NCBI GenBank assembly: GCA_023299945.1
Contig: JALZVZ010000251.1
Location: forward strand, 1 to 15,523
Length of the DNA: 15,523 bases
Direction of reading: 5' to 3'
DNA from: Altererythrobacter sp.
Lineage (GTDB): Bacteria > Pseudomonadota > Alphaproteobacteria > Sphingomonadales > Sphingomonadaceae
Both the position numbers and the translations under genes were made by a program. Under the pieces are notes generated by a model that saw nothing but the letters and a program-made list of their open reading frames with translations, did no database searches and had not been told where the DNA came from. This document shows positions 1 to 15,523 of this stretch, piece after piece. The stretch's first letter is position 1. Every line of letters starts with the position of its first letter.

Positions 1-482
1 GATATGTCCTTGTCGCATTCCTCGCCGTGATAGCTGCCGGGCATGCAATGGATGTCGACCGCGTCTTGATAATACGGAATTGCGACTTCAGGATCGAGCG
101 CAAGCATATTGCTGCCGCGATTGATTTCCTCGACCTTACCAATCAAATCGTCGATCTGGCGCAGCACCAACGCGCGGCCATTTTGCTGGCGCATTTCCAT
201 CGAGTTGCGTTTCAACGCTGACCACGGCCGATGCCATGGGTCGAGGTTCATTGCTTCACGAATTTCATAGCGGTGATTAGGAGCACGCCCATGTTCTTTC
301 TGAAAATTAGGCAGAACTCGTTTCTCATAAGCAATCTTATTACCAGGCCCCAAAACCGTCGCCATATAGCGATTGAAATTGGCCAGAAAATTGAACCGTG
401 CAGCTTCATCATGACGTGGTTTCGGGAAGACCGCATGCTGTGTGACTGCGGTATAGGGAGGGGCAATATCTTCACGTTTCAT
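1..482 (-). CDS. Probable SAM-dependent methyltransferase, N-terminal part (partial)
   Basis: The reading frame starts at the ATG read from 482 down to 480 and stays open to the window edge, so only about the first 160 residues are visible. It opens MKREDIAPPY and contains FNFLANFNRYMATVLGPGNK, a charged helical stretch around SALKRNSMEMRQQNGR, and near the edge VDIHCMPGSYHGEECDKDI. The start overlaps the MFS stop by 4 bp (ATGA), so it is the third gene of the minus-strand operon. The HCMPGSYH-type segment reminds me of proteins annotated as class I SAM-dependent methyltransferases in sphingomonads; that is recognition from memory, and the SAM-binding domain itself lies outside the window. 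A decayed paralogue lies at 14843-15117. The reading frame is certain; the function is tentative. Confidence 0.6.
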   Translation of the reverse strand, partial: MKREDIAPPYTAVTQHAVFPKPRHDEAARFNFLANFNRYMATVLGPGNKIAYEKRVLPNFQKEHGRAPNHRYEIREAMNLDPWHRPWSALKRNSMEMRQQNGRALVLRQIDDLIGKVEEINRGSNMLALDPEVAIPYYQDAVDIHCMPGSYHGEECDKDI

Positions 483-1717
483 GCTGTTGATCCAATCTGC
501 TGCTTGCTCCAATCGGGGTATTTTCCAAGCAGCAAAAGTATCGCGCCGCCTGCAATAAACAGTCCGGCGGCGAAGATGAGCATTTGATCATAGCTACCGC
601 TGGTATCGCGCACATATCCATATAGGACTGGCGAGATCGAAGAGAATATTCCGAAGGGTGCATAAAGGAAGCCATATATGCGGCCATAGGACAGCATGCC
701 AAAATAACGCGAGGCAAGATAGGCTATCATGTCGCTTTCTGCGCCCGCAGCAAAGCCCAGAAAAAAGCCAGCGGTAAAGATCAGCATCTCTGGGGTGGAG
801 TTACCCAATAACAGCCAGCATGCGCCCACGGGCAGCATCAAAACGGGCGCGGCAATTGCCGGGGCCCAGAACTTGTCGAACAGAAACCCGACAATAATGC
901 GCCCAGAAAAAATGCCGGCCGCCACAACGCTCATTACCAACGCAGCTTGTCCCGCGCTTAGGCCGTGCATTTGCACGATCTGAACCATGTGTATATGCGC
1001 GCCGCCATAAGCCAGCGCAATAAACACGATCGACAAAAACAGGATCCAAAACCGGTAACCGCGCAGTGCGTCCGCTAGAGTCATTCCCGTTAAACCGCCT
1101 GTCTCAGAGATGTTCTTTGCAGGACGTTCATGGGGCAAGGGATCACGAAACAGGAAAAATGCAATTGGTAGGCCGACGAAAAGCGGCAGCATCGCCAATG
1201 CAGGGAAAACCGCACGCCAATCAAACGCCTCTAGGACAGCATTGGACAGGAATGGCACAATCAGCCCAGCAAGGCTTGTCCCAAGCAGTAAAATCCCAAG
1301 AGCCAGCCCCCGGTTTTCATAGAACCACATATTGATTGTGCGGCTCCATGTGACCGGTGTCGAACCAATCCCCAACATCCCAACCAGTGCCCAGATCAGA
1401 TAGAAAACTGCGATGTTTTGCGGCACAAAATAGAGGAGCGAAAACGCGATGCCAAACCCGGCTAGCGCCCCCATGGCAACAGGGCGCACTCCAATTTTGT
1501 CGGCCAATGCGCCGACGGCAGGCGCAAGGAAGGCGCCGACCATACCGTAAATTGTAATGCCAATGCTAATCTCGACAAACGACCAGCCCATAGCATAATG
1601 GATCGGGCCAATGACTATCGGCAAGACATTGAACGGGATCGGAGATGCGCCTGTCGCAACGCCGATCATACCTGCAAATAGGCTCCTGCCGCCTTTCTTG
1701 AATTCGGTGGTGTTCAA
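479..1717 (-). CDS. MFS transporter (12-TM, oxalate/monocarboxylate-like group)
   Basis: A 412-residue, very hydrophobic protein with about twelve predicted membrane helices in two halves separated by a charged loop (DPLPHERPAKN). The loop 2-3 signature appears as GALADKIGVRPV at residues 69-80. The second half carries GFAAGAESDMIAYLASRYFG, a pattern typical of the MFS branch that includes oxalate/formate and monocarboxylate carriers. It is expected in the inner membrane and probably imports an organic acid linked to the cluster; the substrate is unknown. The start is TTG, forming a 4-bp TTGA overlap with the stop of the cytochrome gene; GAGG lies 10 nt upstream. Its own stop overlaps the next ATG. 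A fossil of its C-terminus (GKYPDW segment) lies at 15118-15238. Confidence 0.9.
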   Translation of the reverse strand: MNTTEFKKGGRSLFAGMIGVATGASPIPFNVLPIVIGPIHYAMGWSFVEISIGITIYGMVGAFLAPAVGALADKIGVRPVAMGALAGFGIAFSLLYFVPQNIAVFYLIWALVGMLGIGSTPVTWSRTINMWFYENRGLALGILLLGTSLAGLIVPFLSNAVLEAFDWRAVFPALAMLPLFVGLPIAFFLFRDPLPHERPAKNISETGGLTGMTLADALRGYRFWILFLSIVFIALAYGGAHIHMVQIVQMHGLSAGQAALVMSVVAAGIFSGRIIVGFLFDKFWAPAIAAPVLMLPVGACWLLLGNSTPEMLIFTAGFFLGFAAGAESDMIAYLASRYFGMLSYGRIYGFLYAPFGIFSSISPVLYGYVRDTSGSYDQMLIFAAGLFIAGGAILLLLGKYPDWSKQQIGSTA

Positions 1718-3000
1718 GGTGCAGGCACCTCTTCTACCATATCGCCCATCGTTTCCTTCTTGAGGATATTGATAAGCGCAGCCCTGCGGTCAAAATCAGG
1801 CATATTGCCCGAAGACACGACCATGGTGGTACCCGGGGCAAAGGCGTCCGGGTCTTTCAACAATTCATGCATAGCATCATCGGTCCAAACCTCGCCGCGT
1901 GTGCCATGCGCTGCAAAATTGTTAGTGTATGAAAAATTGGGCACTGTCCCGATCTTCTGTCCGAATATGGCATAAAGATTAGGCCCGGAAAGATGCTTCC
2001 CGCCGTTGTCAAAGGTGTGGCAAAAGCCGCACCATTTGAAGTTTTCTTCGCGCACATCGCGTTCCAGTGCTGTTTCAGCGACGACCTGAACCATTTGCAC
2101 CGGACTATCATGTGAAGTCACACCTGCAGGTGCTTTAACGATCTGGCCTGTTTCAAATGGGCTGACCCGGAACAATGCATAGGGTCCGTAAAACCCCATC
2201 CCTATAGGAATAAGCATAGCAGCCGCCGCAATCATGCCAAAGCCCGCTTGCCCTGAGAAACGCGGGCCGCCGGTATCGGGCTGCCGGTTAAGCAATCGGG
2301 CAAGGCCCCAGACACTGGCAAGCACCGCCAGGAAAATTGCCACCGCCATTGGGCCCGGCTCTGGGCCAGAAAAAGTGAAGGCCGCATAGACTGCTACTGC
2401 ACCGGAAAATAGCGTGTAAAGACCAAATCCGGGTAGGAAACCTGCGAACAGACCTTGGCCAAAACGCAGCAGAAAATAAGCTGAAGTTAGCAAAGTCGCC
2501 AGCATCGTAAAGAGCAGAGCAAAGCCAATTGCGGCATGGAAATATCCAGTAAATAGCCAGATTGCGCGGTTCTCCTCCATCAAAGATGGAAAGGCAGGCA
2601 GCGGCCCCAAATGCACCAAATGACCATCAGCCCAAGCGCTTAAAACGCCTAAAAATGGCGCGGCAATCATTAGGGCTAAGGTGGCAATAGTCAGCATAAA
2701 GGACCAGCGATTGGCGAGCGCTGGCAAGGCCGGGTTGACCGGCAGATGACGCCTTTTCCAAAAATGGATTAACAAAAACACGCTAAGGATCGCGAGCAAT
2801 GTCCCCACAGCGTAGTGATAGCCGCGCAATATCTCGCGCATGGGCAATGTTTTGTCGGTGCGCGGTAACAGCGTGTTGATCACATTATGGACAAGGAACG
2901 TCACTGCCCATACGATCGGAAGCCATTTGTAAATGCCCTGAGGCGCAGGGCTGATTTTGCTGTTCTCTTGCTGGCTATCCGCCGTGTGTATCTCAGCCAT
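1714..3000 (-). CDS. Membrane cytochrome: b561-like N-terminal domain fused to cytochrome c
   Basis: From the ATG at 3000 the protein has 428 residues. About seven hydrophobic helices fill residues 27-275 and carry several histidines in or beside membrane segments (about residues 38, 62, 79, 127, 130 and 155), as expected for a heme-b membrane domain. The C-terminal 120 residues are a class I cytochrome c: CGFCH heme attachment at about 324-328, then a GPNLY segment, and PGTTM giving a candidate Met ligand near 393. It probably passes electrons between quinone or periplasmic donors and the respiratory chain. The upstream ATG at 3051 is in frame, but the 3000 start has a perfect AAGGAGG 8 nt ahead and is preferred. 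It is first in the operon with the MFS gene (4-bp overlap). Relation to b561 is by general resemblance only. Confidence 0.82.
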   Translation of the reverse strand: MAEIHTADSQQENSKISPAPQGIYKWLPIVWAVTFLVHNVINTLLPRTDKTLPMREILRGYHYAVGTLLAILSVFLLIHFWKRRHLPVNPALPALANRWSFMLTIATLALMIAAPFLGVLSAWADGHLVHLGPLPAFPSLMEENRAIWLFTGYFHAAIGFALLFTMLATLLTSAYFLLRFGQGLFAGFLPGFGLYTLFSGAVAVYAAFTFSGPEPGPMAVAIFLAVLASVWGLARLLNRQPDTGGPRFSGQAGFGMIAAAAMLIPIGMGFYGPYALFRVSPFETGQIVKAPAGVTSHDSPVQMVQVVAETALERDVREENFKWCGFCHTFDNGGKHLSGPNLYAIFGQKIGTVPNFSYTNNFAAHGTRGEVWTDDAMHELLKDPDAFAPGTTMVVSSGNMPDFDRRAALINILKKETMGDMVEEVPAP

Positions 3001-3008
3001 ACCCCGAG

Positions 3009-3015
3009 CCTCCTT
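3009..3015 (-). promoter_or_regulatory. Ribosome binding site of the cytochrome b/c gene
   Basis: On the minus strand AAGGAGG lies 8 nt before the ATG at 3000. It is the strongest Shine-Dalgarno sequence in the window and decides this start over the in-frame ATG at 3051. Confidence 0.8.
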
Positions 3016-3065
3016 GATTGATGCATACGACCTTGCACTAGACAATGCCATATTCCCTAATGGAT

Positions 3066-3113
3066 AGGCGGAGGCCTGTCTGTATCCTTACTCGCATTGT
3101 CGAGTGTCCGCCT
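3066..3113. repeat. Inverted repeat with inner hairpin
   Basis: AGGCGGA at 3066-3072 is repeated inverted as TCCGCCT at 3107-3113. Inside is a second small stem, CTCG/CGAG (3091-3094 with 3101-3104). It lies just upstream of the cytochrome operon and could be an operator or a leader structure. There is no T-run, so it does not look like a terminator. Confidence 0.4.
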
Positions 3114-3307
3114 GTCGAATAGAAAGGGTGAATAATTGCCACCACTGAATGCCCGCTGTGTAGCCTCATGCGGAGTGGTCTTTAGACATAGTTCTTTGGC
3201 CAGTTTCGAGTTGGCAGACATAATAGGAGCTGTCCCTCTTCAGAACATTTGCTACCAGGTCCGGCTTAGATTAGCGGAGCGTTTGCCTCGTCTTGTTGGT
3301 TGATATT

Positions 3308-3324
3308 AAGCGACGCTTTTAGCG
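3308..3324. repeat. Overlapping short palindromes, candidate operator
   Basis: AAGCG-A-CGCTT (3308-3318) overlaps CGCT-TTT-AGCG (3314-3324), and CGAA-A-TTCG follows at once (3323-3331). Stacked short palindromes in a divergent promoter region fit a regulator binding site, possibly for the IclR-type protein. Binding is not shown. Confidence 0.3.
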
Positions 3325-3339
3325 AAATTCGAACATGTT

Positions 3340-3374
3340 GATGCCGCCAGTTACAATCTCTAGCTGGCGGTATC
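3340..3374 (+). repeat. Long imperfect hairpin in the leader of the hydroxylase operon
   Basis: Bases 3340-3353 can pair with 3361-3374: 14 pairs including two G-U wobbles, centred on CCGCCAG/CTGGCGG, with a 7-nt loop. The wobbles are only compatible with pairing in the plus-strand transcript. No U-tract follows. It could be a leader RNA structure of the 3502 operon or an operator dyad. Confidence 0.35.
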
Positions 3375-3501
3375 TACGTGTCTGCACTGCGCTAGCGAAA
3401 GCCCATAAATGCGCTCGAAGTAAGTATCCGGCAGGCGAATATCATTTGTATTGATGGATCAGATTCTTGGCTTTGCGGGTACCGCTGGCCACTACTGATG
3501 A

Positions 3502-4710
3502 TTGGAGTTTAAAGTCATTACGGATAATGTTGACATCGTTGTTGTGGGCGCTGGCCCGGTGGGTTCGGTGGCGGCAGCACGGTTGGTGCAATGTGGCTTC
3601 TCGGTCATCGTGTGCGAAGCCGAAGCAACCAGCACACAGAACCTGCGCGCATCGACATTCCACCCTCCGACGCTTGAGATGCTCGATACACTGGGCGTGG
3701 CGGACCAAGTTATAAAAGAGGGTTTGAAGGCGCCGGTTTATCACTGGCGCAAGCGCGAGACAGGCGAAGTGTTCTCATTCGACTTTGGCGAGCTGGCTGA
3801 CCGCACCACGCATCCTTACAGGATCCAGTGTGAGCAACACCACTTGTCGCGAATGCTGGCTGAAAAGCTAGCAGGAGAGGCTAAATGCGACCTTCGTTAC
3901 AATACCCGGGTTGTGAATGTTCAGCAGGATGCAGACGGTGTTGATGTAACGCTTGAGACACCGCTAGAGATTCAGCATGTTCGCGCAAAATATGTGATAG
4001 GAGCCGACGGTGCGAACAGCATCGTCCGCAAGTATTTGGGCATCGGGTTCGAGGGGTTCACTTACCCTGAGAAGTTCCTCTGTCTCTCAACTGAAATGGA
4101 CCTTGCCGACCATATCGATGGCTTGGCCTATGTAAATTACGTTTCAGATCCTGAGGAGTGGCTCGTGCTGCTGCGCGTGCCGCGCTTGTGGCGTGTGTTA
4201 GTTCCAACGACCGAGGGGGATGATGACGAGTGGCTATTGTCCGATGCAAAGAAGAATGAAGTCTTTGAGCGACTGGTCGGTCGCAGCGACGTAGAGACCG
4301 CGCATCGAACTATTTACAAAGTGCATCAGCGGGTCGCGGAACGTTTCAATCAGGGCCGTATGTTTCTAGTTGGTGATGCCGCACATCTGAACAACCCGCT
4401 CGGCGGCTTCGGCATGAACAGCGGAATTCACGACGCTTGGAATTTGGCTGGCAAGCTTGATGATGTGGAGCGTCATGGGGCAAGTCCGTCGGTATTCGAC
4501 AGGTTCGACAGGCAGCGCCGTGCGATTACGCATCAGTTCGTGCAGCGTCAAACAATCGACAATATGGAACTGATGAACGGTGAAGGCGGTAAGCAGAAGC
4601 AGATGCGTGACCGTATGAGCCGCCTCAATGATGATCCTGTCGCCCGACGCGAATTTCTGCTTTATCAATCGATGATCAAAAGCTTGGATGATGCTGAGGC
4701 AATATTGTGA
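3502..4710 (+). CDS. FAD-dependent aromatic hydroxylase (PHBH/MhpA-like)
   Basis: A 402-residue flavoprotein monooxygenase of the p-hydroxybenzoate hydroxylase fold, which uses NAD(P)H and O2 to hydroxylate a ring. Visible motifs are the Rossmann GAGPVG at residues 16-21 with the ribose-binding acidic residue near 39, the DG motif GADGANS at 167-173, and GDAAHLNNPLGGFGMNSG from 291, the second FAD motif. These define the FAD_binding_3 family. It is first gene of the plus-strand operon and overlaps the next by 4 bp (GTGA). An in-frame stop lies directly before the TTG at 3502, so the start is TTG or a non-ATG codon shortly downstream. The TTGGAG at 3502-3507 looks like a Shine-Dalgarno sequence, which leaves ATT at 3517 as an alternative. 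The substrate is unknown; the MhpR-like regulator downstream supports an aromatic acid. Confidence 0.9.
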   Translation: MEFKVITDNVDIVVVGAGPVGSVAAARLVQCGFSVIVCEAEATSTQNLRASTFHPPTLEMLDTLGVADQVIKEGLKAPVYHWRKRETGEVFSFDFGELADRTTHPYRIQCEQHHLSRMLAEKLAGEAKCDLRYNTRVVNVQQDADGVDVTLETPLEIQHVRAKYVIGADGANSIVRKYLGIGFEGFTYPEKFLCLSTEMDLADHIDGLAYVNYVSDPEEWLVLLRVPRLWRVLVPTTEGDDDEWLLSDAKKNEVFERLVGRSDVETAHRTIYKVHQRVAERFNQGRMFLVGDAAHLNNPLGGFGMNSGIHDAWNLAGKLDDVERHGASPSVFDRFDRQRRAITHQFVQRQTIDNMELMNGEGGKQKQMRDRMSRLNDDPVARREFLLYQSMIKSLDDAEAIL

Positions 4711-5525
4711 GCGGCATTCCGTCTACACAGATAACACAGCCCCCCTATCCGCCTTATGCCTTGGGTGATCCGCAAGGCATGCGCGATGTGCGCGGCAACC
4801 GCGCTGTTTTTGGTGTTATGGGGCCATCAACCAATACCGTCGTCCAGCCGGATTTTGATGATTTACGGGTGCCGGGCGTTACCAACCATTATAGCCGCAT
4901 AGTCATTCAGGACGCGCAGGCCGTTTCCGACGAAACTTTTTTGGCCGGCACAATCGAGATTTCTGACAATACGTTGGACGCCGTCGCTAGCGTCAAAACA
5001 TGCAACCCCGATTATCTAGTCATGGGTATGTCCGCTGTCACATTCTATAACGGTAAAGCAGGTGCAGCGGCATTTCGTGAACGGATCGAAGAAGCCTCGG
5101 GCATAGGCGTCAGCATCGGTTCTGAATCTTTATCAGCAGCATTGGACGCGATAGGTGGGATCAAGCGCGTTGCATTTGTGTCGCCATATTTCCCTGTCGC
5201 GAATGCCGAAGTTAGCGAGTACCTTAGTGAATGCGGTTATGAAACGGTTCGGAATGCCTGCCTTCGCTGCCCAACTTGGACGGCAATTGCAAAAGTACCA
5301 GAAGACTATCTGACCGAAATTATCCGTGAGCTCGACGGCGACGATGTTGACGCGATCTGCCAAGTCGGCACCAATCTTTCCATGATCCGGCTTGCGGGTA
5401 CGATGGAAAAAGAGCTGGCCAAGCCGGTGATAGCGATAAACACCGCCACCTACTGGCATGCTCTGCGCGCAAATGGCATCAATGACAAAATACACGGTTT
5501 CGGCCGACTGCTAGAGGAACATTGA
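4707..5525 (+). CDS. Arylmalonate decarboxylase / maleate isomerase-like protein (Asp/Glu racemase fold)
   Basis: A 272-residue protein of the Asp/Glu/hydantoin racemase superfamily. Its N-terminus (GVMGPSTNT, residues 36-44) resembles maleate isomerases. MGMSAVTFYNG at 106-116, SPYFP at 159-163 and the C-terminal HGFGRLLEE align with arylmalonate decarboxylase as I remember it. Family members isomerise, racemise or decarboxylate small dicarboxylates through one or two active-site cysteines. Here the position aligned with AMDase Cys188 falls on Gly221 (QVGTNL, 219-224) and the first cysteine position on the MGMS glycine, so both look absent. The start is GTG, overlapping the previous stop by 4 bp, with GAGG 7 nt ahead. 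In the operon it could act on a dicarboxylic ring-opening product. The family is secure; the reaction is not. Confidence 0.8.
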   Translation: MSGIPSTQITQPPYPPYALGDPQGMRDVRGNRAVFGVMGPSTNTVVQPDFDDLRVPGVTNHYSRIVIQDAQAVSDETFLAGTIEISDNTLDAVASVKTCNPDYLVMGMSAVTFYNGKAGAAAFRERIEEASGIGVSIGSESLSAALDAIGGIKRVAFVSPYFPVANAEVSEYLSECGYETVRNACLRCPTWTAIAKVPEDYLTEIIRELDGDDVDAICQVGTNLSMIRLAGTMEKELAKPVIAINTATYWHALRANGINDKIHGFGRLLEEH

Positions 5526-5531
5526 GAGTCG

Positions 5532-6437
5532 ATGATGGACTATGATTACATACCGCTGCCAAACCGCGGTCCGCTTAGTTGGCCTGACGGTAAAACTGTG
5601 GCCCTTGTTTTCACGTTCAACTTGGAAACTTGGGACCTTACCAAGGATCACGACAAGCCGTATTACGCAGGGGGGCCTGCAGTTTTGCCTGATAGTCTGC
5701 CGGCGAATGTCCCAGACTTCCCTAATTATACTTGGCGCGAATACGGACAGCGCGTGGGCATCTGGCGGCTGTATGACTTGTTCGACGAGATGGGTGTGGC
5801 AGCCAGCTGCACTACAAATGCTGTTACCTTTGAAAGGCGCAGCGCGATGGTTGATGCGTGCCTTGAACGCGGCTGGGAATTGCTGGCGCACAATTACGAG
5901 CAGGGCGAATTGCTGACCAATTTTGCGCATGATCCGGCAAAAGAACGCGATATCATCCTACGCTCAATCGAAATTTATGAAAAACACACAGGCAGGCGCC
6001 CAAAAGGATGGCTATCGTCATCCCTACGGGGCACGTTGAACACTGCAGGTATACTTGCCGATCAGGGTTTTGAATTTTATTGCGACCTAATGAATGACGA
6101 TCAGCCTTATATGCTGAGGACGGAGAATGGCGAGATCGTGGCGCTACCATATTCCAATGAGATCAATGATTTCACCTTGCTTACTAGGCGCGGGCATACG
6201 ACCAGTGAGATGCGCGATATATTGATCGAAGAGCTGGAGGTTCTGCACGAAGAAGGCAAACAGTCTGCACGGATCATGAATGTTGGGCTGCATCCTCACG
6301 TCAGCGGGCGGGCCTATCGTATCCGTGCCATCCGTGAATTCATCGAGCATGCGAAGAAGTTGCCGGGTGTATGGTTCCCGACAAGATCCGAGATTGTGGA
6401 GGCGTATAAACCGCAAGCCAAGGCGCATATTGGATGA
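5532..6437 (+). CDS. PuuE-like polysaccharide deacetylase-fold hydrolase
   Basis: A 301-residue protein of the NodB/CE4 fold, subgroup of allantoinase PuuE and related cyclic amide or imide hydrolases. Visible motifs: TFNLETW at 28-34 where classical deacetylases have TFDDG, AHNYEQGE at 119-126 in place of HxxxH, SLRGT at 164-168, and GLHPHVSGR at 252-260. The usual Asp-His-His metal set therefore seems to be Asn30, His120 and Gln124, consistent with the metal-independent behaviour reported for PuuE. There is no signal peptide, so it is cytoplasmic. It would be suited to hydrolysing a C-N bond of a cyclic amide, imide or ureide made in the pathway. It starts 6 bp after the previous stop (ATG at 5532, or 5535, which is better placed for GAGAG) and overlaps the next gene by 4 bp. 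Confidence 0.82.
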   Translation: MMDYDYIPLPNRGPLSWPDGKTVALVFTFNLETWDLTKDHDKPYYAGGPAVLPDSLPANVPDFPNYTWREYGQRVGIWRLYDLFDEMGVAASCTTNAVTFERRSAMVDACLERGWELLAHNYEQGELLTNFAHDPAKERDIILRSIEIYEKHTGRRPKGWLSSSLRGTLNTAGILADQGFEFYCDLMNDDQPYMLRTENGEIVALPYSNEINDFTLLTRRGHTTSEMRDILIEELEVLHEEGKQSARIMNVGLHPHVSGRAYRIRAIREFIEHAKKLPGVWFPTRSEIVEAYKPQAKAHIG

Positions 6438-7672
6438 GGTGGAGCGGTCACATCCGCAACGTCGGAGCAATTGTCGCTCTAGCCTGGCTACTTACTGCCT
6501 GCTCAACGACGCCTTTAGCTGAAGCTCAGACTGCCATCACACCGGAGCAATCCTCCGCCATTCTTGCGGCGAACCTTAAGGAACTTAATGGTGCAACTCC
6601 GCTAGACGTGGATCGTTACAAGCCGCTAGTGACGGTAACTGGTTGCGCGGAAAACGTGATGGAAGCTGCCCCCGCATCCCCCGCGCTTACCGAAGGGCTC
6701 AAGCCAGCCCTGGATTATCATGCGCAGAAGGGCGGGATCGGCATTGCCATTTGGCATAATGGCAAATTGGTATCGGAGGTTTACCGCGAGGGCGTGGATA
6801 GAACCAGTCGAACCGAGAGCTTCTCAATGCATAAATCGCTGCTTGCGCTCGCAGTGGGTTTAGCAATCAAGGACGGGTTTCTTCCAAGTAAAGACGTGCC
6901 GGTGGGCACTTTTCTTCCTGAGTGGGCGGACGATGCCCGCGGTAAAATCCCTCTTTCCGCGTTCCTAAACATGGAAAGCGGACTGGAGCTCTATTCGATG
7001 GGCGGGCCTCAGAGCGCTGAAGCTATGTCCCTAGTAATGTCAGGCGATATAACAAAGGTCGCACTGGGTCATGACGTGGTCGAACCGCCGAATAGGACTT
7101 TTCGTTATAATAATGCCAACAGCCAGATTGTCGGCACAGTCCTAAATCGCGCACTGAACGCCGCAGGCAAACGGGGCGGCTATGCCGCCTATGTTTCGCA
7201 GAACATTTGGTGCCCTTTAGGCAATCAGGACGGAGCCGTTTGGCTGGACCGGGATGGCGGCGCGCCGCATTATTTCTCGGGAATGCAGGCAACATTGCTC
7301 GACTGGCTTCGTGTTGGAGTGATGATCGGAAATAACGGGCAAGCAAACGGCAAGCAGATCATTCCGGCCGACTGGCTCACCCAAATGGCTGAACCGGCAC
7401 CAAACAACCCCAATTACGGCCTGCATTTGTGGCTCGGATCACCGGCAGGTGGCCGTCGAGCTTATAGTCCAGAAAGCCCAATGAAGGTGCCGCATGCAGA
7501 GCCTTATCTTGCAGATGATGTGGTCTTCTTTGACGGCTTCGGCGGCCAGCGTGTCTACATTGTCCCGTCACGAAAGCTGGTCGTCGCGCGCACTTCATTG
7601 GTCGATTTTACTTATGACGACAGCGTTATTCTGAATACAATTTTGCGGGTGATCGCTGAAGGCGAACAGTGA
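6434..7672 (+). CDS. Beta-lactamase-family serine hydrolase, lipoprotein
   Basis: A 412-residue protein. The N-terminus has basic residues, a hydrophobic run and the lipobox LLTAC with Cys23, so it is probably a lipoprotein acting outside the cytoplasm. The beta-lactamase/esterase/DD-peptidase family nucleophile motif SxxK is SMHK at 131-134 and the YxN motif is Tyr225-Asn-Asn227. The late motif region is DGFGGQRVYIVP near 367-378. Such proteins hydrolyse esters, amides or lactams; real antibiotic resistance is unlikely in this context. ATG overlaps the PuuE-like stop (ATGA) and AAGGCG lies about 8 nt upstream. The 10052-11323 gene encodes a diverged paralogue sharing PYLA-D, FDG-G-Q and YIVPS at the C-terminus. 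Confidence 0.88.
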   Translation: MRWSGHIRNVGAIVALAWLLTACSTTPLAEAQTAITPEQSSAILAANLKELNGATPLDVDRYKPLVTVTGCAENVMEAAPASPALTEGLKPALDYHAQKGGIGIAIWHNGKLVSEVYREGVDRTSRTESFSMHKSLLALAVGLAIKDGFLPSKDVPVGTFLPEWADDARGKIPLSAFLNMESGLELYSMGGPQSAEAMSLVMSGDITKVALGHDVVEPPNRTFRYNNANSQIVGTVLNRALNAAGKRGGYAAYVSQNIWCPLGNQDGAVWLDRDGGAPHYFSGMQATLLDWLRVGVMIGNNGQANGKQIIPADWLTQMAEPAPNNPNYGLHLWLGSPAGGRRAYSPESPMKVPHAEPYLADDVVFFDGFGGQRVYIVPSRKLVVARTSLVDFTYDDSVILNTILRVIAEGEQ

Positions 7673-7700
7673 GTTATCGCCATCCGTCAATTACGCTGCT

Positions 7701-8531
7701 ATGATACTCCCCATGAAAAACGAGAATGGCGAAACTGCGCCTTCCGACAATATCCGCGCACTTAGCCGTGGAATTGCGGTTTTACAGGCGATCAACAATG
7801 GCGGTTCCGTGCGAATGATGGATATATCGCGCGAAGCAGGCATTCCATATCCTACGGCGTGCCGCATCGTCGCCACCTTGACTGAAGAGGGGCTGATCGA
7901 ACGCGAACCTGCACGCAAACGATATCGACCGACGGCTTTAGTGCAAACGCTCTCTCACGGTTTCCATAACGAAAGCGGTTTAGTCGCTACCGCCCGTCCG
8001 CATATCGTGGCCCTATGCAAAAAAGTGGGCTGGCCGATAAGTATCGCGACCCGTGTGGGCAATCGGATGATGGTGCGCGATTCTACGCACCATCTGACTT
8101 CTCTTACTCTGACCAATTATGCTCCGGGATTCACCCTGCCGCTGGCTGGGTGCTCTACTGGCAAAGTGTATCTCGCATTTTGCGCCGAAGAGGAACGCCA
8201 CGACCTGCTTTTTGGCATGAACCAAATCGACAGCAGCGGCAATCGGCTGGCGAAAATGATGACCTATGATGACGGCCTAATCAATCAGATCCGTGCAGAT
8301 GGATACGCAATGGAAGCGCGTAATCATTACACCGCCAATCCAGGCAAAACCTCGTCCATCGCAGTTCCAATATTCGACAATGGCAAACTGATCGGGGCGA
8401 TGGCCATCATAATCTTCGCCGCCGCAATGAAACTGGACGAGGCACGGGACAAATTTCTGCCGCAGCTAAAAGCAACTGCGGAGGAAGTTGGCAGAGAATT
8501 ATCCCAGGGGGTATCAGCCCAAGAGGTCTGA
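7701..8531 (+). CDS. IclR-family transcriptional regulator, MhpR-like
   Basis: A 276-residue regulator. Residues about 18-80 form the winged helix-turn-helix (ALSRGIAVLQAINNGG, then MDISREAGIPYPTACRIVAT), followed by the IclR effector domain. WPISIATRVGNRMMVRDSTH, APGFTLPLAGCSTGKVYLAF and the AEEER segment resemble MhpR, the activator of 3-(3-hydroxyphenyl)propionate catabolism, as I recall it. It probably senses an aromatic or dicarboxylic acid and controls the divergent region at 3001-3501 and perhaps the minus-strand operon starting at 14716. It lies 28 bp behind the lipoprotein gene and is likely cotranscribed. No clear Shine-Dalgarno sequence precedes either ATG at 7701 or 7713. The family is certain; activator or repressor mode is not visible. 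Confidence 0.93.
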   Translation: MILPMKNENGETAPSDNIRALSRGIAVLQAINNGGSVRMMDISREAGIPYPTACRIVATLTEEGLIEREPARKRYRPTALVQTLSHGFHNESGLVATARPHIVALCKKVGWPISIATRVGNRMMVRDSTHHLTSLTLTNYAPGFTLPLAGCSTGKVYLAFCAEEERHDLLFGMNQIDSSGNRLAKMMTYDDGLINQIRADGYAMEARNHYTANPGKTSSIAVPIFDNGKLIGAMAIIIFAAAMKLDEARDKFLPQLKATAEEVGRELSQGVSAQEV

Positions 8532-8666: not shown

Positions 8667-10055
8667 CTATATCAAAAGAGCCGCAGGAAACTCAGGATTG
8701 AGGGCTACTGGGCCTTCATTAGTGATCAGCGTTAGGTCTTCGTAATGCGCTGACCCACCAATGCCTTCGTCAAACAAGGGGCAATCGACGCTTAGGACCA
8801 TGCCGGGCTCAAGTTTGGTGCCAATGTATTGTTCAGCTGACTGGCCTGACGGATCGTCGCTATGCCATAGACCCACGCTATGGACCCCGAACCGCACAAA
8901 AATATCGAGCGAGCTGCGCCGCAAAGCCTCTTCTCCAGCCTTTATTAGATCGCCATAGGTATTGCCGACGAGCATCTTGGCACGGATCGCTTGCCAGGCC
9001 TTTGCCATGGCCCCGACCACTGCTGCCATTTTTCGATCTGGCTCGCCCAAGAATACGGTCCGGCCAAAGTCGCCATGATAACCATTGAAGCCAGAAACTC
9101 CGTCGATCAGAAAGGCCTGCCCATCGCGCAATTTGCGTTCATACCTTATCGACGTTGCGCGATCGATCGCCATGAATCCGGGAATGCCGCCGCGCTGCGC
9201 CGCCTCGCCAAAATAGGCAGTGCGTAGATCGTGTAAGCCTGCCCCCGCCCTTACTTGTTGTGCCGCCGCCATGGCGGCCTGCGCATTGCTCGTTGCGGCA
9301 TGCCTCATCAACTCAATTTCAATCGGCGATTTGATGCGCCGTATCAGGCCCAGTGGGCCCGCCGGATCGACAAAATCAATCCCCAGCTCAGCCCGTTCGC
9401 AATACATATTTGCCAAGAAGCTGTCCGAAGCAACGCGTTTCCCTGCAAGCCCTGAATCTCGGATCATCTTTACCAATCCGATTTCCGCCGATGCAGTTAT
9501 TGTCGAGGTCAACGCAGCAACTTCGTCGCGCCGGCGCTTTTCATCAAAGCTGAGATCAGCCCCGTCCTCCGCACGCATTAGAGTAGGTGCAGCAGCCTTT
9601 GGCGGGCCCTCAAAGGAGCCTTGGACTTCTGCCGGGCTCGAATAAATACGCGGTTCCAGCCATTGGCCCGGACGTTCGTCGCTTGCAAGATAGTAATAGG
9701 CGAAATCATTGAGCAGCAGCCGGACAGGCTCACGCTGATCAGCCATCAATAGCGCATACGCCTCAAACGGCCGAGGAAACATCATATTGGTGACGGGGCT
9801 AATCCCAGTCAGATGGTAAATACTCACTGGATCGCTGGTCAATACAGCATCGAGCCGGCCGTCAGCCAAAACCTTTGCAGCATTCTCACGGTTAAAATGC
9901 GGTGCATCGACCAACCAGCTATTCAGCTTACTATTGATCGGGTCCGCCGGTGCGATGTTTGCCGATTTTTTCGCAAAAGACGGCGCAGGCATAGCCGCCA
10001 AAGTTGCACCGCTAATTGCTGTACCTAAGGCTGTGCGTCTTGTTAGTTTGGTCAA
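8667..10055 (-). CDS. M24-family (Xaa-Pro aminopeptidase/creatinase-like) hydrolase, Tat-exported
   Basis: I place the start at TTG 10055, giving 462 residues; it forms a 4-bp TTGA overlap with the upstream lipoprotein stop and puts the twin-arginine motif LTRRTALG at residues 4-11, followed by a hydrophobic alanine-rich signal ending near PAPSFA. A longer frame from 10136 would bury the signal and overlap the neighbour by 85 bp. After a creatinase-like N-terminal domain, the M24 domain shows the metal ligands Asp318 (LIDGVS), Asp329 (HGDFGRT), His392 (GVHSVG) and Glu439 (HYEDL). The position usually occupied by the other Glu is Asp424 (SVDCP). M24 proteins cleave peptide or other C-N bonds. 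It is the last gene of the minus-strand operon, and it converges with the iclR side. Confidence 0.87.
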   Translation of the reverse strand: MTKLTRRTALGTAISGATLAAMPAPSFAKKSANIAPADPINSKLNSWLVDAPHFNRENAAKVLADGRLDAVLTSDPVSIYHLTGISPVTNMMFPRPFEAYALLMADQREPVRLLLNDFAYYYLASDERPGQWLEPRIYSSPAEVQGSFEGPPKAAAPTLMRAEDGADLSFDEKRRRDEVAALTSTITASAEIGLVKMIRDSGLAGKRVASDSFLANMYCERAELGIDFVDPAGPLGLIRRIKSPIEIELMRHAATSNAQAAMAAAQQVRAGAGLHDLRTAYFGEAAQRGGIPGFMAIDRATSIRYERKLRDGQAFLIDGVSGFNGYHGDFGRTVFLGEPDRKMAAVVGAMAKAWQAIRAKMLVGNTYGDLIKAGEEALRRSSLDIFVRFGVHSVGLWHSDDPSGQSAEQYIGTKLEPGMVLSVDCPLFDEGIGGSAHYEDLTLITNEGPVALNPEFPAALLI

Positions 10056-11323
10056 TTGGGCTGCATCGCTGGCGTTTGTCCAGTCGGAAACGTGATTCCG
10101 CGAAGGACAGTGTTGGGCAAGACAGAATTGTCCCATTCCGCTGGCTTCTTCGGCCAGGTGCCAAGGCGAAGGATGACAAGATCAGCACTTGGCACAATGT
10201 ATGCTGTTTGGTTGCCATTGCCGTCGAACAGAAACAAATCGCTGGCAAGGTATGGTTGGCTATGCAGGACTTCGTATGAACCGAACCGACTATTGGAAAA
10301 GCCGCGTCGTTCTTTGTATGCTCCTGCAGTATATACGCCCATTCCGTACCACGGGTTTTGCTGCGTTCCGCGCCTCATGTCAGCGACGAAGCCGGCCGGA
10401 AGCAACCGTTCGCCATCCCAGCTGCCATCTTGGAGAAGCAGCACGGCGAGCCGCATCCAGTCTTCGGAAGGTAGCAAGATGCAGCAGCCACTATGTGCCA
10501 TGCCATTGGGGCGGTTGACCCAAATTTCGCCGCCCTTGCCCCCAATAGGAGCAATGACATGGCGCGATAGAAATTCAGCGTAACGCATGCCGGAGGCGCG
10601 CTCGATAATAGGCGCAACCATTTCTGCGGTTGCATTGGCGTATTCGAACGCTTCGCCCGGCTCGTGCACCATAGGCATTTCGCGAATAATAATTTCATCA
10701 TGGCGCGGATGCAGATAAGCTCGGTTGAGCACATCCGCCCTGTCCCGTGACGCCTCGGCTTGCGGTTTAAACCCGCTGCGCATATCGAGGAGATGGCGGA
10801 TCAGGATCTTTTCCTGAGCCAGCCCCTTCCACTCCGTTATGAAGTCTGATGCTGGCTGGTCGACAGAATCAATATAGCCAAGCGCGATAGCCCTGCCGAT
10901 TGCTATAGCGCCAAGGGGCTTACCCAATGAGCGGGCCACCATTGGCGTATCACGCGTGGTATCGCCGAAATAATCCGCCGATTGCAATCCACCTGCGCGC
11001 CAAATCAGCAAAGCTGAGGAATTGTTCGCACCGGCATATTCCCTTGCGGCTGCAAGCGCTTCTGGGTCTATCAATGGGTCCCCGGCACCTGCAGTAGGCA
11101 GCGGTGCAGCGGCCGCGGCTCCAGGAACGGCCTCCATTGTATCATAGCTATTAAGGCCCTGCCCAGTAACGAAGGCTTTGGCTAGGTCGTCGGTGCGCTT
11201 GTTGTAGAGTGCCTCATCCTCCGCGCTGAACTGCAGCGGCGTTTGCTCCAATTCGTTAGTCGCAGCGCTCATGCATCCGCTGAGCATCAGCGCCAACATA
11301 CATGCCAAGTTAGCCTTCTTCAT
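10052..11323 (-). CDS. Beta-lactamase-family serine hydrolase, lipoprotein (second paralogue)
   Basis: A 423-residue protein starting MKKANLACMLALMLSGC, a clear lipoprotein signal with Cys17. SxxK is SLGK at 132-135 and YxN is Tyr228-Ala-Asn230. The C-terminal region (QPYLASDLFLFDGNGNQ, then YIVPSADLVI) matches the equivalent part of the 6434-7672 protein, so the two are paralogues on opposite strands of one cluster. They are clearly diverged in the N-terminal half, which here contains an extra low-complexity stretch (GAAAAAPLPTAGAG) between signal and catalytic domain. It probably hydrolyses an ester, amide or lactam in the periplasm. ATG overlaps the aldehyde dehydrogenase stop by 4 bp and its own stop overlaps the M24 start by 4 bp. 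No strong Shine-Dalgarno sequence is seen, so coupling is likely. Confidence 0.88.
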   Translation of the reverse strand: MKKANLACMLALMLSGCMSAATNELEQTPLQFSAEDEALYNKRTDDLAKAFVTGQGLNSYDTMEAVPGAAAAAPLPTAGAGDPLIDPEALAAAREYAGANNSSALLIWRAGGLQSADYFGDTTRDTPMVARSLGKPLGAIAIGRAIALGYIDSVDQPASDFITEWKGLAQEKILIRHLLDMRSGFKPQAEASRDRADVLNRAYLHPRHDEIIIREMPMVHEPGEAFEYANATAEMVAPIIERASGMRYAEFLSRHVIAPIGGKGGEIWVNRPNGMAHSGCCILLPSEDWMRLAVLLLQDGSWDGERLLPAGFVADMRRGTQQNPWYGMGVYTAGAYKERRGFSNSRFGSYEVLHSQPYLASDLFLFDGNGNQTAYIVPSADLVILRLGTWPKKPAEWDNSVLPNTVLRGITFPTGQTPAMQPN

Positions 11324-12834
11324 ACAATCGCGCAGACTGTCTTGAGATTAAGATAATTGTCCATTGCAGCCTTTCCGCTGTCGCGGCCCCAGCCCGATTG
11401 TTTGATGCCTCCGATAGGCAAAGAAGCGTCATACATGGCATGGCCATTGATCCAGACCGTACCCGCTTGCAGTCGTTCGGTCATCCTAACTGCGCTAGAA
11501 AGCCCTTCAGTCCAGATGCTGGCAGCGAGACCATAATCACTGTCGTTGGACGCGGTGATAACTTCATCGACATCATCAAAAGGCATTGCGGTAAGTACTG
11601 GACCAAACACCTCCTCGCGCGCAATCCGCATGTCAGGCCGCACGCCTGTAACAACAGTCGGCGTAATGAAGCTGGCATTTTCTCCCGCAGTTTCACCGCC
11701 GCACAATATGGAGGCACCTGACTTTTTCCCATCCGCGATAAAGTCTGCGACTTTAGCGGCATGAGCGCTCGATACCAGCGGCCCCATCTGCGTTGCTGGA
11801 TTAAGGCCGTGGCCCATTGCGATACTTTCTGCCGCAGAAACGACGCCTTCGGCAACACGGTCAAAAATGCTGCTGTGAGCATAGAGACGCGACCCGGCGA
11901 TGCAGACCTGTCCAGCATTAAAGAAAATCGCATTGGCTGCGCCCGCAATTGCGGCATCCAGATCAGCATCTGGCATAATGATGACCGGCGATTTTCCGCC
12001 AAGTTCCAGGGTCACGCGCTTCAAATTGCCCTTGGCTGCATCAAGGATCGCACGGCCGGTTGCAGTTGAGCCGGTAAAGGTGATCTTATCGACACCCTTA
12101 TGCGCAGCAAGCGCAGCGCCAGCTTCTGCCCCGTATCCAGTCACCACGTTCAACACACCGTCTGGCAATCCGGCTTCGGTCATGAGTTCCGCAAGACGGA
12201 TTGCGGTAAGTGAGGTGTCTTCCGATGGCTTAAGAACTATTGTGCAACCCGCCGCCAAGGCAGGAGCCAACTTCATCGCCGTCAGAACTAGTGGAGAGTT
12301 CCAAGGAACAATTGCACCGACCACGCCTACAGGCTGCTTCAACGTGTAGGAGAACACCTGCTTACCTTCGGGCTGGTAAGCAATTGAGTCCTGAATTGTA
12401 GAACCCTCGATCTTATCGGCCATACCAGAGAAGAAACGAAACTGTCCGATTGCGCCGGGAATTTCCGCCCAGCGCCCCACATAGAGCGCCTTACCCTGAT
12501 CAAGCGTCTCCAATTCTGCCAGTTCGTCGATGTTCGCCTCCAGCAGATCCGCGATTTGCCAAAGGATACGCCCACGTGCTGCTGGGGTCATTGTGCTCCA
12601 TGGCCCGCCGTCAAAAGCGGAGCGTGCCGCCTTGACTGCCTTCTCGATATCTGACGCACCGCCCCGCGCGATTTGCGTGATCGGCTTACCGGTGGCCGGA
12701 TCGCTTGTTGTAAAAAATGCGCCGTCTGCCGGATCTGTCCATTGCCCGCCGACGAGGATCTGCGCCTTCTGGCGATCAATAAACGCTTGCGCGGCCTTGC
12801 CGAGTTGCTGAACGAGGGGATCGATACGGGACAA
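11320..12834 (-). CDS. NAD(P)-dependent aldehyde dehydrogenase
   Basis: A 504-residue, full-length member of the aldehyde dehydrogenase superfamily, oxidising an aldehyde to the acid with NAD(P). Key residues are in place: VPWN with Asn179, KPSE with Lys202, the nucleotide-binding FTGSTATG at 253-260, the general base Glu277 in LELGGKSP, and the catalytic Cys311 in NAGQVCIAG. No acylating-type features were noticed. It is cytoplasmic. The start is TTG at 12834 with GGAG 8 nt upstream (minus strand GGAGAATTACC before TTG), a convincing ribosome site. It overlaps the downstream lipoprotein gene by 4 bp and follows the VOC gene after 112 bp. It may oxidise the aldehyde released by the lyase encoded at the head of this operon. 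Confidence 0.95.
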   Translation of the reverse strand: MSRIDPLVQQLGKAAQAFIDRQKAQILVGGQWTDPADGAFFTTSDPATGKPITQIARGGASDIEKAVKAARSAFDGGPWSTMTPAARGRILWQIADLLEANIDELAELETLDQGKALYVGRWAEIPGAIGQFRFFSGMADKIEGSTIQDSIAYQPEGKQVFSYTLKQPVGVVGAIVPWNSPLVLTAMKLAPALAAGCTIVLKPSEDTSLTAIRLAELMTEAGLPDGVLNVVTGYGAEAGAALAAHKGVDKITFTGSTATGRAILDAAKGNLKRVTLELGGKSPVIIMPDADLDAAIAGAANAIFFNAGQVCIAGSRLYAHSSIFDRVAEGVVSAAESIAMGHGLNPATQMGPLVSSAHAAKVADFIADGKKSGASILCGGETAGENASFITPTVVTGVRPDMRIAREEVFGPVLTAMPFDDVDEVITASNDSDYGLAASIWTEGLSSAVRMTERLQAGTVWINGHAMYDASLPIGGIKQSGWGRDSGKAAMDNYLNLKTVCAIV

Positions 12835-12936
12835 GGTAATTCTCCAATTGCATTAGCACTACATCAGCGCGTGGCAGGTTAAGGTGTCTTGAGCCACTCT
12901 CTCCGTCTGGCGAACATTACAAGAAATTGCCAATCA

Positions 12937-12950
12937 ATGACCTGCGTCAT
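12937..12950. repeat. Perfect inverted repeat at the VOC-ALDH gap
   Basis: ATGAC-CTGC-GTCAT spans the VOC stop codon and the start of the 112-bp gap before the aldehyde dehydrogenase gene. It is the only clear dyad in that gap. It could be a weak operator or a hairpin; a chance repeat of this size is possible. Confidence 0.25.
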
Positions 12951-13843
12951 TCTGAGCCGCCCACGAGTTCGAGTAATTCTCCAGCAACGCCCCTAACCGT
13001 GCCGGAGAAACGGCCATCATAGAGCGGCCCTTCGCGCCGAACTGGCGTTGTCAGCCAATCCACATCCAGCTCAGCGACATTGTCTACGTCAAGCGTAACC
13101 ATGCTGTTACCGGGGGGCAGTAAACCTGCGCCAAATTGGCGCTCGCTGGCCTGATTGGGATATTCATCCACTTCCACAATCGGCATCCGCCCTTTTTGGA
13201 TCATAGTGAGCGTAGATTGTGTCCCCGCTGGCAGTCCGAATGCCTTATTGATCATTGTGTACTCAATCTTGTGCGTCTCGCCGATGTCCAAATTCAGCTT
13301 ATCCTTATACCACTCCACTGCGGCATGCCGATCAGGCGCAGCCAAAATGACTATGAATATCTCGTCAGCAAGACATTTTGCTTTGGGCAAATCTGTTGAA
13401 GGCGTATCGAGACGCACTTCGTTGAGGTAAATCATTTCTCGCCCCGGCCCGAGCGCCTGCATCGCTATAAAATAGGGCAACCCAGCAATTTCTTTTGGCG
13501 GACCAACGACCTCGAAACTCGATCCAGCCAACCGATCAGGCCACCCGAACGCATCTTGAGCAGTCATCTCATACGCAGCCCAACCAAAGGTAGTGCTTGG
13601 CACAAAACTGGTTGGCGCAGGTTGTTCAACAAGACGAATGAAGCATGACACCCCAGATTTAGGCTGTAGCAAAGCGTAACGCCGGAGCGCGGTGGCCACC
13701 GCACCCCAGCTTTCCGCCAGCGAAGCCGTAATTTGTCCATTCTCAACCAGCGAAAGCCCGAGCGTATCGCGGTAACCGGCTATAGCCTTGTCCAAATCCG
13801 GAACTGCAATGGTTCCGCACCTGATCTGTCCATGGGTGCTCAA
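12947..13843 (-). CDS. Two-domain VOC (glyoxalase/dioxygenase-fold) protein
   Basis: A 298-residue protein with two vicinal-oxygen-chelate modules: the first starts at about residue 9 (GTIAVPDLDKAIAGYRDTLG) and the second at about 165 (AAPDRHAAVEWYKDKLNLDI). The layout recalls extradiol dioxygenases and glyoxalase-like isomerases. However, the position where a metal-binding His normally sits in the first strand of each module is not His (Cys or Gly in RCGTIAV; no His in EIFIVILAAP). Function as a ring-cleavage enzyme is therefore doubtful, and an isomerase, epimerase or binding role is possible. The start is TTG at 13843 with AAAGGA about 8 nt upstream on the minus strand. It lies 48 bp after the lyase gene in the same operon. 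Confidence 0.8.
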   Translation of the reverse strand: MSTHGQIRCGTIAVPDLDKAIAGYRDTLGLSLVENGQITASLAESWGAVATALRRYALLQPKSGVSCFIRLVEQPAPTSFVPSTTFGWAAYEMTAQDAFGWPDRLAGSSFEVVGPPKEIAGLPYFIAMQALGPGREMIYLNEVRLDTPSTDLPKAKCLADEIFIVILAAPDRHAAVEWYKDKLNLDIGETHKIEYTMINKAFGLPAGTQSTLTMIQKGRMPIVEVDEYPNQASERQFGAGLLPPGNSMVTLDVDNVAELDVDWLTTPVRREGPLYDGRFSGTVRGVAGELLELVGGSE

Positions 13844-13891
13844 AGTGGTAATCCTTTGTCTAAGCTAACAATCAAACCAAGAACCCCATCG

Positions 13892-14716
13892 TCACGAAAC
13901 GTCTTTCTCAGCGATCAATGCGGTAACTTCGGCAAAAGGCTTCCAGCCCGTTTCCTTATTAGGCTCACCTGAAGATAGCGATTGGTAAAACCTTTCACCT
14001 GCACCTGCAGCAGCGAGCCCGGCTCCGGAAGGGTATATCACAACCTTAACTCCAAGCCGCTCATAATCAGAAGGCGTCAAAACCGGTGTTACACCCCCGT
14101 GCGCTGCATTGATCATCAGTGGACCTTTGAGAGTGGCTCCCGCCTGTTCAATTTCAAGCGAAGATGGCACCGCCTCCAACAACAAAACATCCGCACCAGC
14201 TTTATGATAGCGCGCCAGTCGCGCGATTGCCGCATCCAAGCCTTCACTCTTACGAGCGTCAGTTCGTGCCACAATCAGCATATTACCATCGCCGCGCCCT
14301 TCTATAGCAGCCCCAATCCGGGCCTCCATCTCTTCGATGGCAGCACATTGCGGCACCCCCGAGTGGCCGCAAATTTTAGGAAAGCTCTGATCCTCAATCT
14401 GGAACGCAGCGATACCAGCACTCTGATAGGCGGCAGCCGCGTGCATGCAATTTGCCAAACTACCAAAACCAGTGTCTGCATCTGCAATAATGGGTGTTTG
14501 GGCATGCCGAGCATATCGGGAAAAAGCGTCAATGAACTCGCTCATTCCAACAATGCCAGTATCCGGCTTACCATACCTGCTAGCTGCGGCCCAATAGCCG
14601 GAACCAAAGAGAGCTCCGAAGCCCATCTTGTCCGCTAAAACAAGGCTCACATGATCGTAAAATCCAGGTGCGACTACAATAGCCTCAGCGTGGATTTGGT
14701 CGATCAAAGAAGCCAT
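13892..14716 (-). CDS. Isocitrate lyase/PEP mutase-family C-C lyase
   Basis: A 274-residue alpha/beta-barrel protein of the ICL/PEPM superfamily. It shows the metal-binding ADADTGFG near residues 78-85, IEDQSFPK at about 107-114 and the catalytic loop KICGH at about 114-118, whose Cys is typical of lyases (isocitrate, methylisocitrate and dimethylmalate lyases) and missing in PEP mutase. ARTDAR follows at about 150. The expected reaction is Mg-dependent retro-aldol cleavage of a branched hydroxy-dicarboxylate, giving pyruvate, glyoxylate or succinate-type products. I take the ATG at 14716; an in-frame TTG at 14722 is possible and neither has a good ribosome site. It is the first gene of the minus-strand operon. 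The exact substrate is unknown; the short length argues against isocitrate lyase proper. Confidence 0.88.
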   Translation of the reverse strand: MASLIDQIHAEAIVVAPGFYDHVSLVLADKMGFGALFGSGYWAAASRYGKPDTGIVGMSEFIDAFSRYARHAQTPIIADADTGFGSLANCMHAAAAYQSAGIAAFQIEDQSFPKICGHSGVPQCAAIEEMEARIGAAIEGRGDGNMLIVARTDARKSEGLDAAIARLARYHKAGADVLLLEAVPSSLEIEQAGATLKGPLMINAAHGGVTPVLTPSDYERLGVKVVIYPSGAGLAAAGAGERFYQSLSSGEPNKETGWKPFAEVTALIAEKDVS

Positions 14717-14842
14717 TTTCAATTGTTAGGATGAACAACGGCATGAACTCACCTATGCAAAAAATTGTATTCAGCAGGCGGATGAAACGCATCATGCCAC
14801 CGCTCTAAAGTCGGAGGATAAATAAGAGCTTATGTTTTTTAA
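14717..14842 (-). promoter_or_regulatory. Probable promoter region of the minus-strand operon
   Basis: About 125 bp lie between the lyase start and the end of the decayed block, so the promoter for 14716-8667 should lie here unless it sits in the decayed DNA. Short dyads are present: GCAT-C-ATGC (14789-14797) and GATG-aaacg-CATC (14781-14793). I cannot place a convincing -35/-10 pair. Confidence 0.35.
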
Positions 14843-15117
14843 TATGCCCACGGCCCGCTGATAATCAGGAATTTCGACTGATGGATCAAGCAGTAGCCCA
14901 TTGCGACCAGTGTTCAGTTTTTCGGTTTCAGCGATCAGTTCTCCCAACTGGCGCAGCTCCATAGCGGCCCATCTGTTGCCGTATCTCCATCGACTTGCGT
15001 TTCAGAGCAGATCAAAACTGGTACCATGGGTCGCTGTTCATCGAGGCGCGAATTTCAAACCGATCCTTCGGTTCGCGGCTATGCTCTTTCTCGTAGTTGG
15101 GCTTCACTCGATTGTTA
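14843..15117 (-). pseudogene. Decayed copy of the methyltransferase-like gene
   Basis: Read on the minus strand this stretch gives RVKPNYEKEHSREP, then RFEIRASMNSDPW, then SALKRKSMEIRQQMGR, aligned with the partial gene at 1-482 (RVLPNFQKEHGRAP, RYEIREAMNLDPW, SALKRNSMEMRQQNGR). It is dead: the Trp codon TGG of the intact copy is TGA here (15012-15014). A frameshift follows MGR, after which the other frame reads MELRQLGELIAETEKL and DPSVEIPDYQRAV. The first roughly 49 residues are missing, and similarity ends at about 14843. There is no start codon context. Confidence 0.85.
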
Positions 15118-15238
15118 TTATGCACTCTCAGTTGGGGACGGCGCTGTCTTTACCGTATCAAGCCCAGCAGCCTCCCAATCGGGATATTTACCCAGCAGCA
15201 AGGTTGCACCACCGATTGCAAATAGGAATATGGCGGCG
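15118..15238 (-). pseudogene. C-terminal remnant of an MFS transporter gene
   Basis: On the minus strand the frame reads AAIFLFAIGGATLLLGKYPD and ends TVKTAPSPTESA with a double stop TAATAA (15115-15120). It matches the last helix and tail of the transporter at 479-1717 (AAGLFIAGGAILLLLGKYPD). The remaining roughly 380 residues are missing. At its upstream end it is joined directly to the cytochrome remnant. Confidence 0.85.
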
Positions 15239-15440
15239 CTTCCACCAGCAAAGCAGCAAATAAATGCTAAGCACGAGCAGCATTGCACCAACCAGATAAT
15301 GCCAGCCTTGCAATGTTTCTCGCATGGGCGTTGTTTTGTCGGCGCGCGGCAACAATGTATTGACGATACTATGAACGGAAAATGTTGCGATTAACTGGCG
15401 AGGGCTTCGCCGGCGCTTGCGTCGATGAATTTTCGCTCAA
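15232..15440 (-). pseudogene. N-terminal remnant of the cytochrome b/c gene
   Basis: The minus strand reads ATFSVHSIVNTLLPRADKTT followed by PMRETLQGWHYLVGAMLLVL and KRRH, aligned with residues of the intact protein at 1714-3000 (VTFLVHNVINTLLPRTDKTL, PMREILRGYHYAVGTLLAIL, KRRH). Upstream, in another frame, a TTG at 15440 starts MSENSSTQAPAKPSP, similar in character to the intact N-terminus, and that frame then hits TAG. So the gene has a frameshift near the N-terminus and has lost everything after the second helix, including the cytochrome c domain. Confidence 0.85.
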
Positions 15441-15523
15441 ATTAGGCGCCTTGTGCCGCGGACCAAAGCCTGCCCGAGACTGCCGTCTGGGTGCAAAGCT
15501 ACATATCAGCGAAACGTTGCCTG
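15441..15523. other. Right edge, no feature seen
   Basis: The 83 bases upstream of the cytochrome remnant show no recognisable gene or motif and no obvious match to the leader of the intact cytochrome gene. Confidence 0.4.

Follow-up and report, generated by a model that had tools for sequence, protein, structure and literature searches.

After xenologous gene displacement, a genome holds a dead homologue alongside a working one that is not its sister. Gene remnants can also lie at the edges of metabolic clusters, and the gibberellin operon of rhizobia has, in the sections of the source that we draw on, flanking remnants of cyp115 and idi (PMC7273348). The locus described here, from an Altererythrobacter sp., has features of both. 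The window analyzed is a stretch of 15,523 nucleotides that forms the whole of contig C251 in a draft genome of 2.51 Mb (361 contigs, 90% complete), with close proteins coming from Erythrobacter MAGs. As in xenologous gene displacement, it carries non-sister homologues of which one is dead and one working, the live methyltransferase-like gene being truncated at the contig end; unlike displacement in place, the two cassettes occupy different sites. As with the gibberellin operon, fragments of once-working cluster genes sit beside a metabolic gene cluster that has probably moved horizontally, but the remnants in that operon, as far as the same sections describe them, are single genes, whereas the window holds a dead three-gene cassette with a cassette of another lineage ~12 kb away (PMC7273348).

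The live block occupies the left end of the window on the minus strand. It consists of a membrane cytochrome gene (1714..3051; 445 aa, with a C-terminal cytochrome c domain), an MFS carrier gene (479..1717; 412 aa), and a methyltransferase-like gene (3..512). Relatives of the cytochrome are named cytochrome c2 or cytochrome b561 by one source, and a full-length relative of the methyltransferase-like gene has a SAM-methyltransferase domain at residues ~200 to 310. The first-pass annotation had called this block intact, but the contig start cuts the methyltransferase-like gene after its first 170 aa, so that its full integrity is not visible. Another contig of the same genome, C347, starts near this cut point, but it was rejected as the left neighbor because its methyltransferase half is 85 to 98% identical to that of relatives and thus belongs to another module. 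C347 (1-5137; locus L051) opens with that half, which the contig start truncates; next come a zinc alcohol dehydrogenase, a FAD-binding protein, an unnamed 241-aa gene, and a carbon-nitrogen hydrolase, a gene set that recurs in relatives.

Dead and live blocks stand in direct orientation about 11.8 kb apart, bracketing the catabolic genes as had been described on first reading. The plus-strand run (3502..8531) comprises FAD monooxygenase-like, Amdase-family, PuuE-allantoinase-like, beta-lactamase-family, and IclR regulator genes, and the minus-strand run (8667..14722) M24-family, beta-lactamase-family, aldehyde dehydrogenase, glyoxalase-family, and PEP-mutase/methylisocitrate-lyase-like genes; the first gene of the latter starts 121 bases after the remnant. 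The M24-family ORF as listed shares 85 bases (10052-10136) with the beta-lactamase-family ORF and probably has its true start further in. Labels of NTF2 and DUF3237 in the gene maps were unsupported by Pfam and were dropped. A Pfam scan of the window's 13 proteins revealed no transposase, integrase, or IS family, the outer borders lying beyond the contig. Within 14600-15523, three terminator-like sites were found where 1.1 would be expected, and no promoter-like site where 0.8 would. In 600-base steps, G+C content dips slightly, to 46 to 47% in 14551-15000 and 50 to 52% in 14851-15450, against 50 to 57% in the rest of the window.

The catabolic families include the FAD monooxygenase-, Amdase-, and PuuE-like genes at 3502-6437 and the methylisocitrate-lyase-like gene at 13892-14722; CoA-transferase III, HMGL-like, and aconitase-family genes lie elsewhere in the genome (contig C41, 7708-11802 of L004). 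As a guess from family membership, they could together convert a cyclic imide to a substituted malate, which would then be cleaved; kinship of imidases to PuuE is reported in the portion of PMC9304392 used here. Positions 557-3241 and 11578-12288 of another contig of this genome (C314; L053) hold two tandem PuuE/imidase-like genes, 27 to 30% identical to that of the window, and two PEP-mutase-family relatives. Tandem imidase-like pairs also occur in L084, L092, L103, L110, and L112. One genome (G011, contig C1, 981000-1066500, within L084-L088) has a catabolic supercluster of ~85 kb on a 3.0-Mb contig, in which six methyltransferase-family members accompany numerous genes related to the catabolic ones of the window.

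The dead block is a true, well-preserved remnant of the three-gene cassette. At 14843-15427, on the minus strand, pieces of the cytochrome, MFS carrier, and methyltransferase-like genes follow one another in the order of the genes at 3-3051. Comparison of 14723-15523 with 1-3500 by BLASTN returned three colinear plus/plus pieces with 66 to 69% DNA identity: a methyltransferase-like piece (14844-15128 versus 52-337; 66%, 287 columns, E 2e-33), a cytochrome piece (15225-15376 versus 2741-2892; 67%, 153 columns, E 4e-16), and a piece near the MFS C-terminus (15175-15238 versus 509-572; 69%, 64 columns, E 2e-5). TBLASTN agreed, with 37 of 66 residues identical for the cytochrome (E 2e-25), 14 of 18 for the MFS carrier (E 2e-5, the search space being very small), and 32 of 58 plus 22 of 41 in two frames for the methyltransferase-like gene (joint E 5e-24, one TGA). 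The ordered match of three gene pieces to the left block, which the first-pass annotation had read from translations, was thus borne out by both searches. Similarity covers 14843-15427 of the extent first assigned, and none was found in the remaining 15428-15440.

Little of the coding sequence survives. The cytochrome remnant (15221..15427) is readable for residues ~49 to 105 of 445 (15221-15391), with fainter similarity out to 15427 seen against one relative (P0016), and it lacks the cytochrome c domain. It adjoins the MFS remnant (15175..15225), which retains only residues 386 to 403 of 412; since the two abut near 15221-15225, ~2.2 kb is missing there. The methyltransferase-like remnant is split into a first piece (14964..15137) with a single in-frame TGA and a second piece (14843..14962) in a different frame, without the SAM-methyltransferase half, and its first 45 to 55 residues are unreadable. 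In all, ~163 of ~1255 codons (~13%) can be read (55 + 17 + 50 + 41). The nonsense change, frameshifts, and large deletions claimed on first reading take the form of a single TGA, a single frameshift, and large deletions, and these lesions, in sequence significantly similar to a working gene, identify the block as a pseudogene remnant.

The remnant bears marks of past selection as coding sequence. Against the live gene, mismatches at codon positions 1, 2, and 3 numbered 18, 11, and 31 in the cytochrome remnant (55 codons) and 9, 9, and 27 in the first methyltransferase piece (49 codons), a third-position excess in two of the three pieces; the second methyltransferase piece (38 codons; 13, 10, and 19) has little such excess. 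Differences at positions 1 and 2, summed over the loci L145-L150, were 104, 158, and 187 for the remnant and 80, 136, and 151 for the same codons of the live window genes, that is, 16 to 30% more in the remnant. We read this as a long divergence while the cassette probably still worked, followed by decay with large deletions, the relative shares of the two being poorly measured. The longest identical stretch common to the dead and live blocks is 11 bp. Experimentally, segments of 25 to 90 bp have been found for starting homologous recombination, according to the part of PMC9650840 consulted, so the excision of the cluster by recombination between repeats that had been envisaged is unlikely today, the blocks sharing none of the long identical stretches of excising direct repeats.

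To place the two blocks among their relatives, we compared scores and trees. Five of 120 listed cytochromes outscore the window's own (86 bits), which ranks sixth of 120 proteins against the cytochrome remnant: P0015 (96 bits), P0010, P0007, and P0011 scored 96 to 90 bits, and P0016 was ahead by 0.4 bit. The methyltransferase remnant scored best with P0138, at 137 bits versus 113 for the window's own gene. Quick trees had 72 and 53 rows for the two genes; careful trees had 37 rows for the cytochrome and 36 for the methyltransferase, and 36 and 38 rows, respectively, with named loci added. Their rows were hand-selected from the listed matches (34 of 120 cytochromes in the 37-row tree and 34 of 149 methyltransferases in the 36-row tree). 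In quick and careful trees alike, dead and live copies of both genes fell in separate supported clades. The dead cytochrome grouped with P0007, P0010, P0011, P0015, and P0016 (98/97 and 99/98 in two samplings) and the live one with P0002-P0005 and P0008 (100/99 and 100/98). The dead methyltransferase was sister to P0138 (99/95 in both samplings), and the live one grouped with P0140, P0143, P0144, P0147, P0149, and P0151 (100/99 in both). The dead pieces find their closest relatives among proteins of metagenomic origin.

AU tests rejected dead and live copies as sisters in both samplings, for the cytochrome (p 0.0012 and 0.00089) and for the methyltransferase (p 7.9e-5 and 0.0075). Larger groups were picked after the trees were seen: the dead copy held with the live one and its nearest kin gave p 0.0019 (cytochrome, 5 rows) and 0.0008 (methyltransferase, 6 rows), and the dead copy held with the live one's wider clade was mildly rejected for the methyltransferase (p 0.024, 8 rows) and not clearly rejected for the cytochrome (p 0.060, 7 rows). 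The dead pieces in these trees are short, at 55 (cytochrome) and about 90 (methyltransferase) residues, and the dead methyltransferase has an end branch of 0.45 to 0.48 versus 0.008 to 0.023 for its sister P0138; such short pieces and long branches can mislead trees. By these tests, the two copies are not each other's closest relatives for either gene in either sampling.

Distribution of the cassette was analyzed in genome surveys. Among 150 relatives (91 of the same genus, own genome included), six had a best cytochrome match below E 1e-70, again counting its own; weaker matches occurred in all 150, which is unsurprising for cytochrome c, and among the matches listed, down to about E 7e-12, the window's remnant was the sole N-terminal-only one. 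A match to a cytochrome of the dead copy's clade at E<=1e-40 was found in 13 of 397 genomes in a draw from the family and 6 of 396 in a draw from the order, one per genome and own included, in overlapping draws that scored at most four candidates per genome and at a threshold that a short remnant would miss. No plasmid matched such a cytochrome at E 1e-20. Within these limits of candidates and threshold, two cassettes were seen in no genome but that of the window. In that genome, the remnant DNA matches, besides itself, only the left block and contig C41 (72% over 122 bases), the latter encoding a whole, distinct methyltransferase of 424 aa.

When genome contigs were first scanned with the live cytochrome, no relative emerged; an alignment of 20 cytochromes yielded 26 named loci. 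Gene maps of relatives were made by TBLASTN with a chosen set of 37 query proteins and show only genes within that set. The order cytochrome, MFS carrier, methyltransferase recurs in six of the 26 loci (L145-L150), which are also the six best full-length cytochrome matches (58 to 71%). In all six, a second methyltransferase gene and a beta-lactamase-family gene lie in divergent orientation to the cassette, and beyond them five of the loci have an MmgE/PrpD-family gene and an unnamed 178-aa gene. Four of them, L145 and L150 (uncultured Sphingomonadaceae), L148 (uncultured Altererythrobacter), and L149 (Sphingorhabdus sp. 109), have the gene order and strand of both window blocks, but where their cassettes diverge from that methyltransferase and beta-lactamase-family pair, the window's live block diverges from the FAD-Amdase-PuuE-like run. 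Relics of the second methyltransferase were sought in 3052-3560, 14700-14860, and 15380-15523 and none was found, the only foreign match in these segments being 12 residues of a TetR protein (E 0.03). Two partial cytochromes at contig ends, L167 (60%) and L168 (67%), lack the downstream MFS-methyltransferase pair and count against a fixed cassette. This pair is also missing from the remaining loci (36 to 51%); in L163, the neighboring position is taken by a different MFS gene.

FAD monooxygenase-, Amdase-, and PuuE-like genes accompany several of the distant cytochromes (L158 and L160; G090, G025, and G063). Because the window's live cassette diverges from a run of this type, the window joins two arrangements that are otherwise seen separately. 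An IclR gene follows the cassette in G538, and 5 kb farther the opposite strand carries a PEP-mutase-family gene; the dead cassette next to 13892-14722 loosely resembles this arrangement. Among the examined loci, which do not include the contigs of P0138, P0007, P0010, and P0015, no cassette of the dead copy's lineage stood next to these catabolic genes.

The symmetry of the locus had suggested a tandemly duplicated left block, and gene order and strand are indeed equal on both sides of the 11.8 kb. A tandem or segmental duplication within the lineage, with later decay of the right copy, is nonetheless unlikely: the AU tests reject sisterhood for both genes in two samplings, the 66 to 69% DNA identity is low for a duplication, and the dead copy scores higher with other lineages (P0015 and P0138) than with the live block. 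Given the separate clades and this rejection, the dead block is probably no tandem duplicate. The non-sister trees do fit a much older duplication, in which both cassettes were vertically inherited paralogues predating the clade split and one died here. This is the main rival to the explanation that we prefer, yet it too is rather improbable, as the single cytochrome matches per genome in both draws would then demand many separate losses. A false join, with the contig's right end belonging elsewhere, is suggested by the position of the remnant at a contig end in a draft of 361 contigs; it is very unlikely, since it would unite intact sequences rather than yield ordered decay of three genes within 0.6 kb; a misassembled end could affect the join to the neighboring gene, not the decay itself.

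We therefore favor, as the probable explanation, the presence of two cassette lineages in the window, the dead one from a different branch and decayed within a catabolic mosaic. The remnant is likely a dead member of a recurring cassette of membrane cytochrome, MFS carrier, and SAM methyltransferase that belongs to related catabolic clusters of the erythrobacter group and other Sphingomonadales. Catabolic clusters in this group may be mosaics of exchangeable runs, and the locus may have been assembled from cassette-bearing pieces through horizontal transfer or rearrangement. Two cassette lineages would then have met at one locus, where one sufficed and the other was redundant; long after the lineages had diverged, the redundant one would have been lost by point decay and, for the most part, a small number of large deletions. 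The array of related modules offered as an alternative in the first-pass annotation survives in its modularity, neighboring gene kinds standing in other orders in relatives; an expanding array was not seen, with one match in each of the 13 family genomes (E<=1e-40, at most four candidates scored per genome, a limit that a short remnant would miss).

The remnant has an ordinary cause, a familiar kind of event that left a trace of clusters rebuilt from parts. It also carries a warning that similar blocks flanking a cluster need not be duplicates. More tentatively, the cassette could be an interchangeable electron-transfer and transport part that is swapped among related catabolic clusters of Sphingomonadales, with the outgoing cassette still readable here. 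Exchange of the cassette as a whole would make joint action of its three genes probable and so offer a way into an uncharacterized gene set. Remnants of this kind document the assembly of catabolic clusters from parts.
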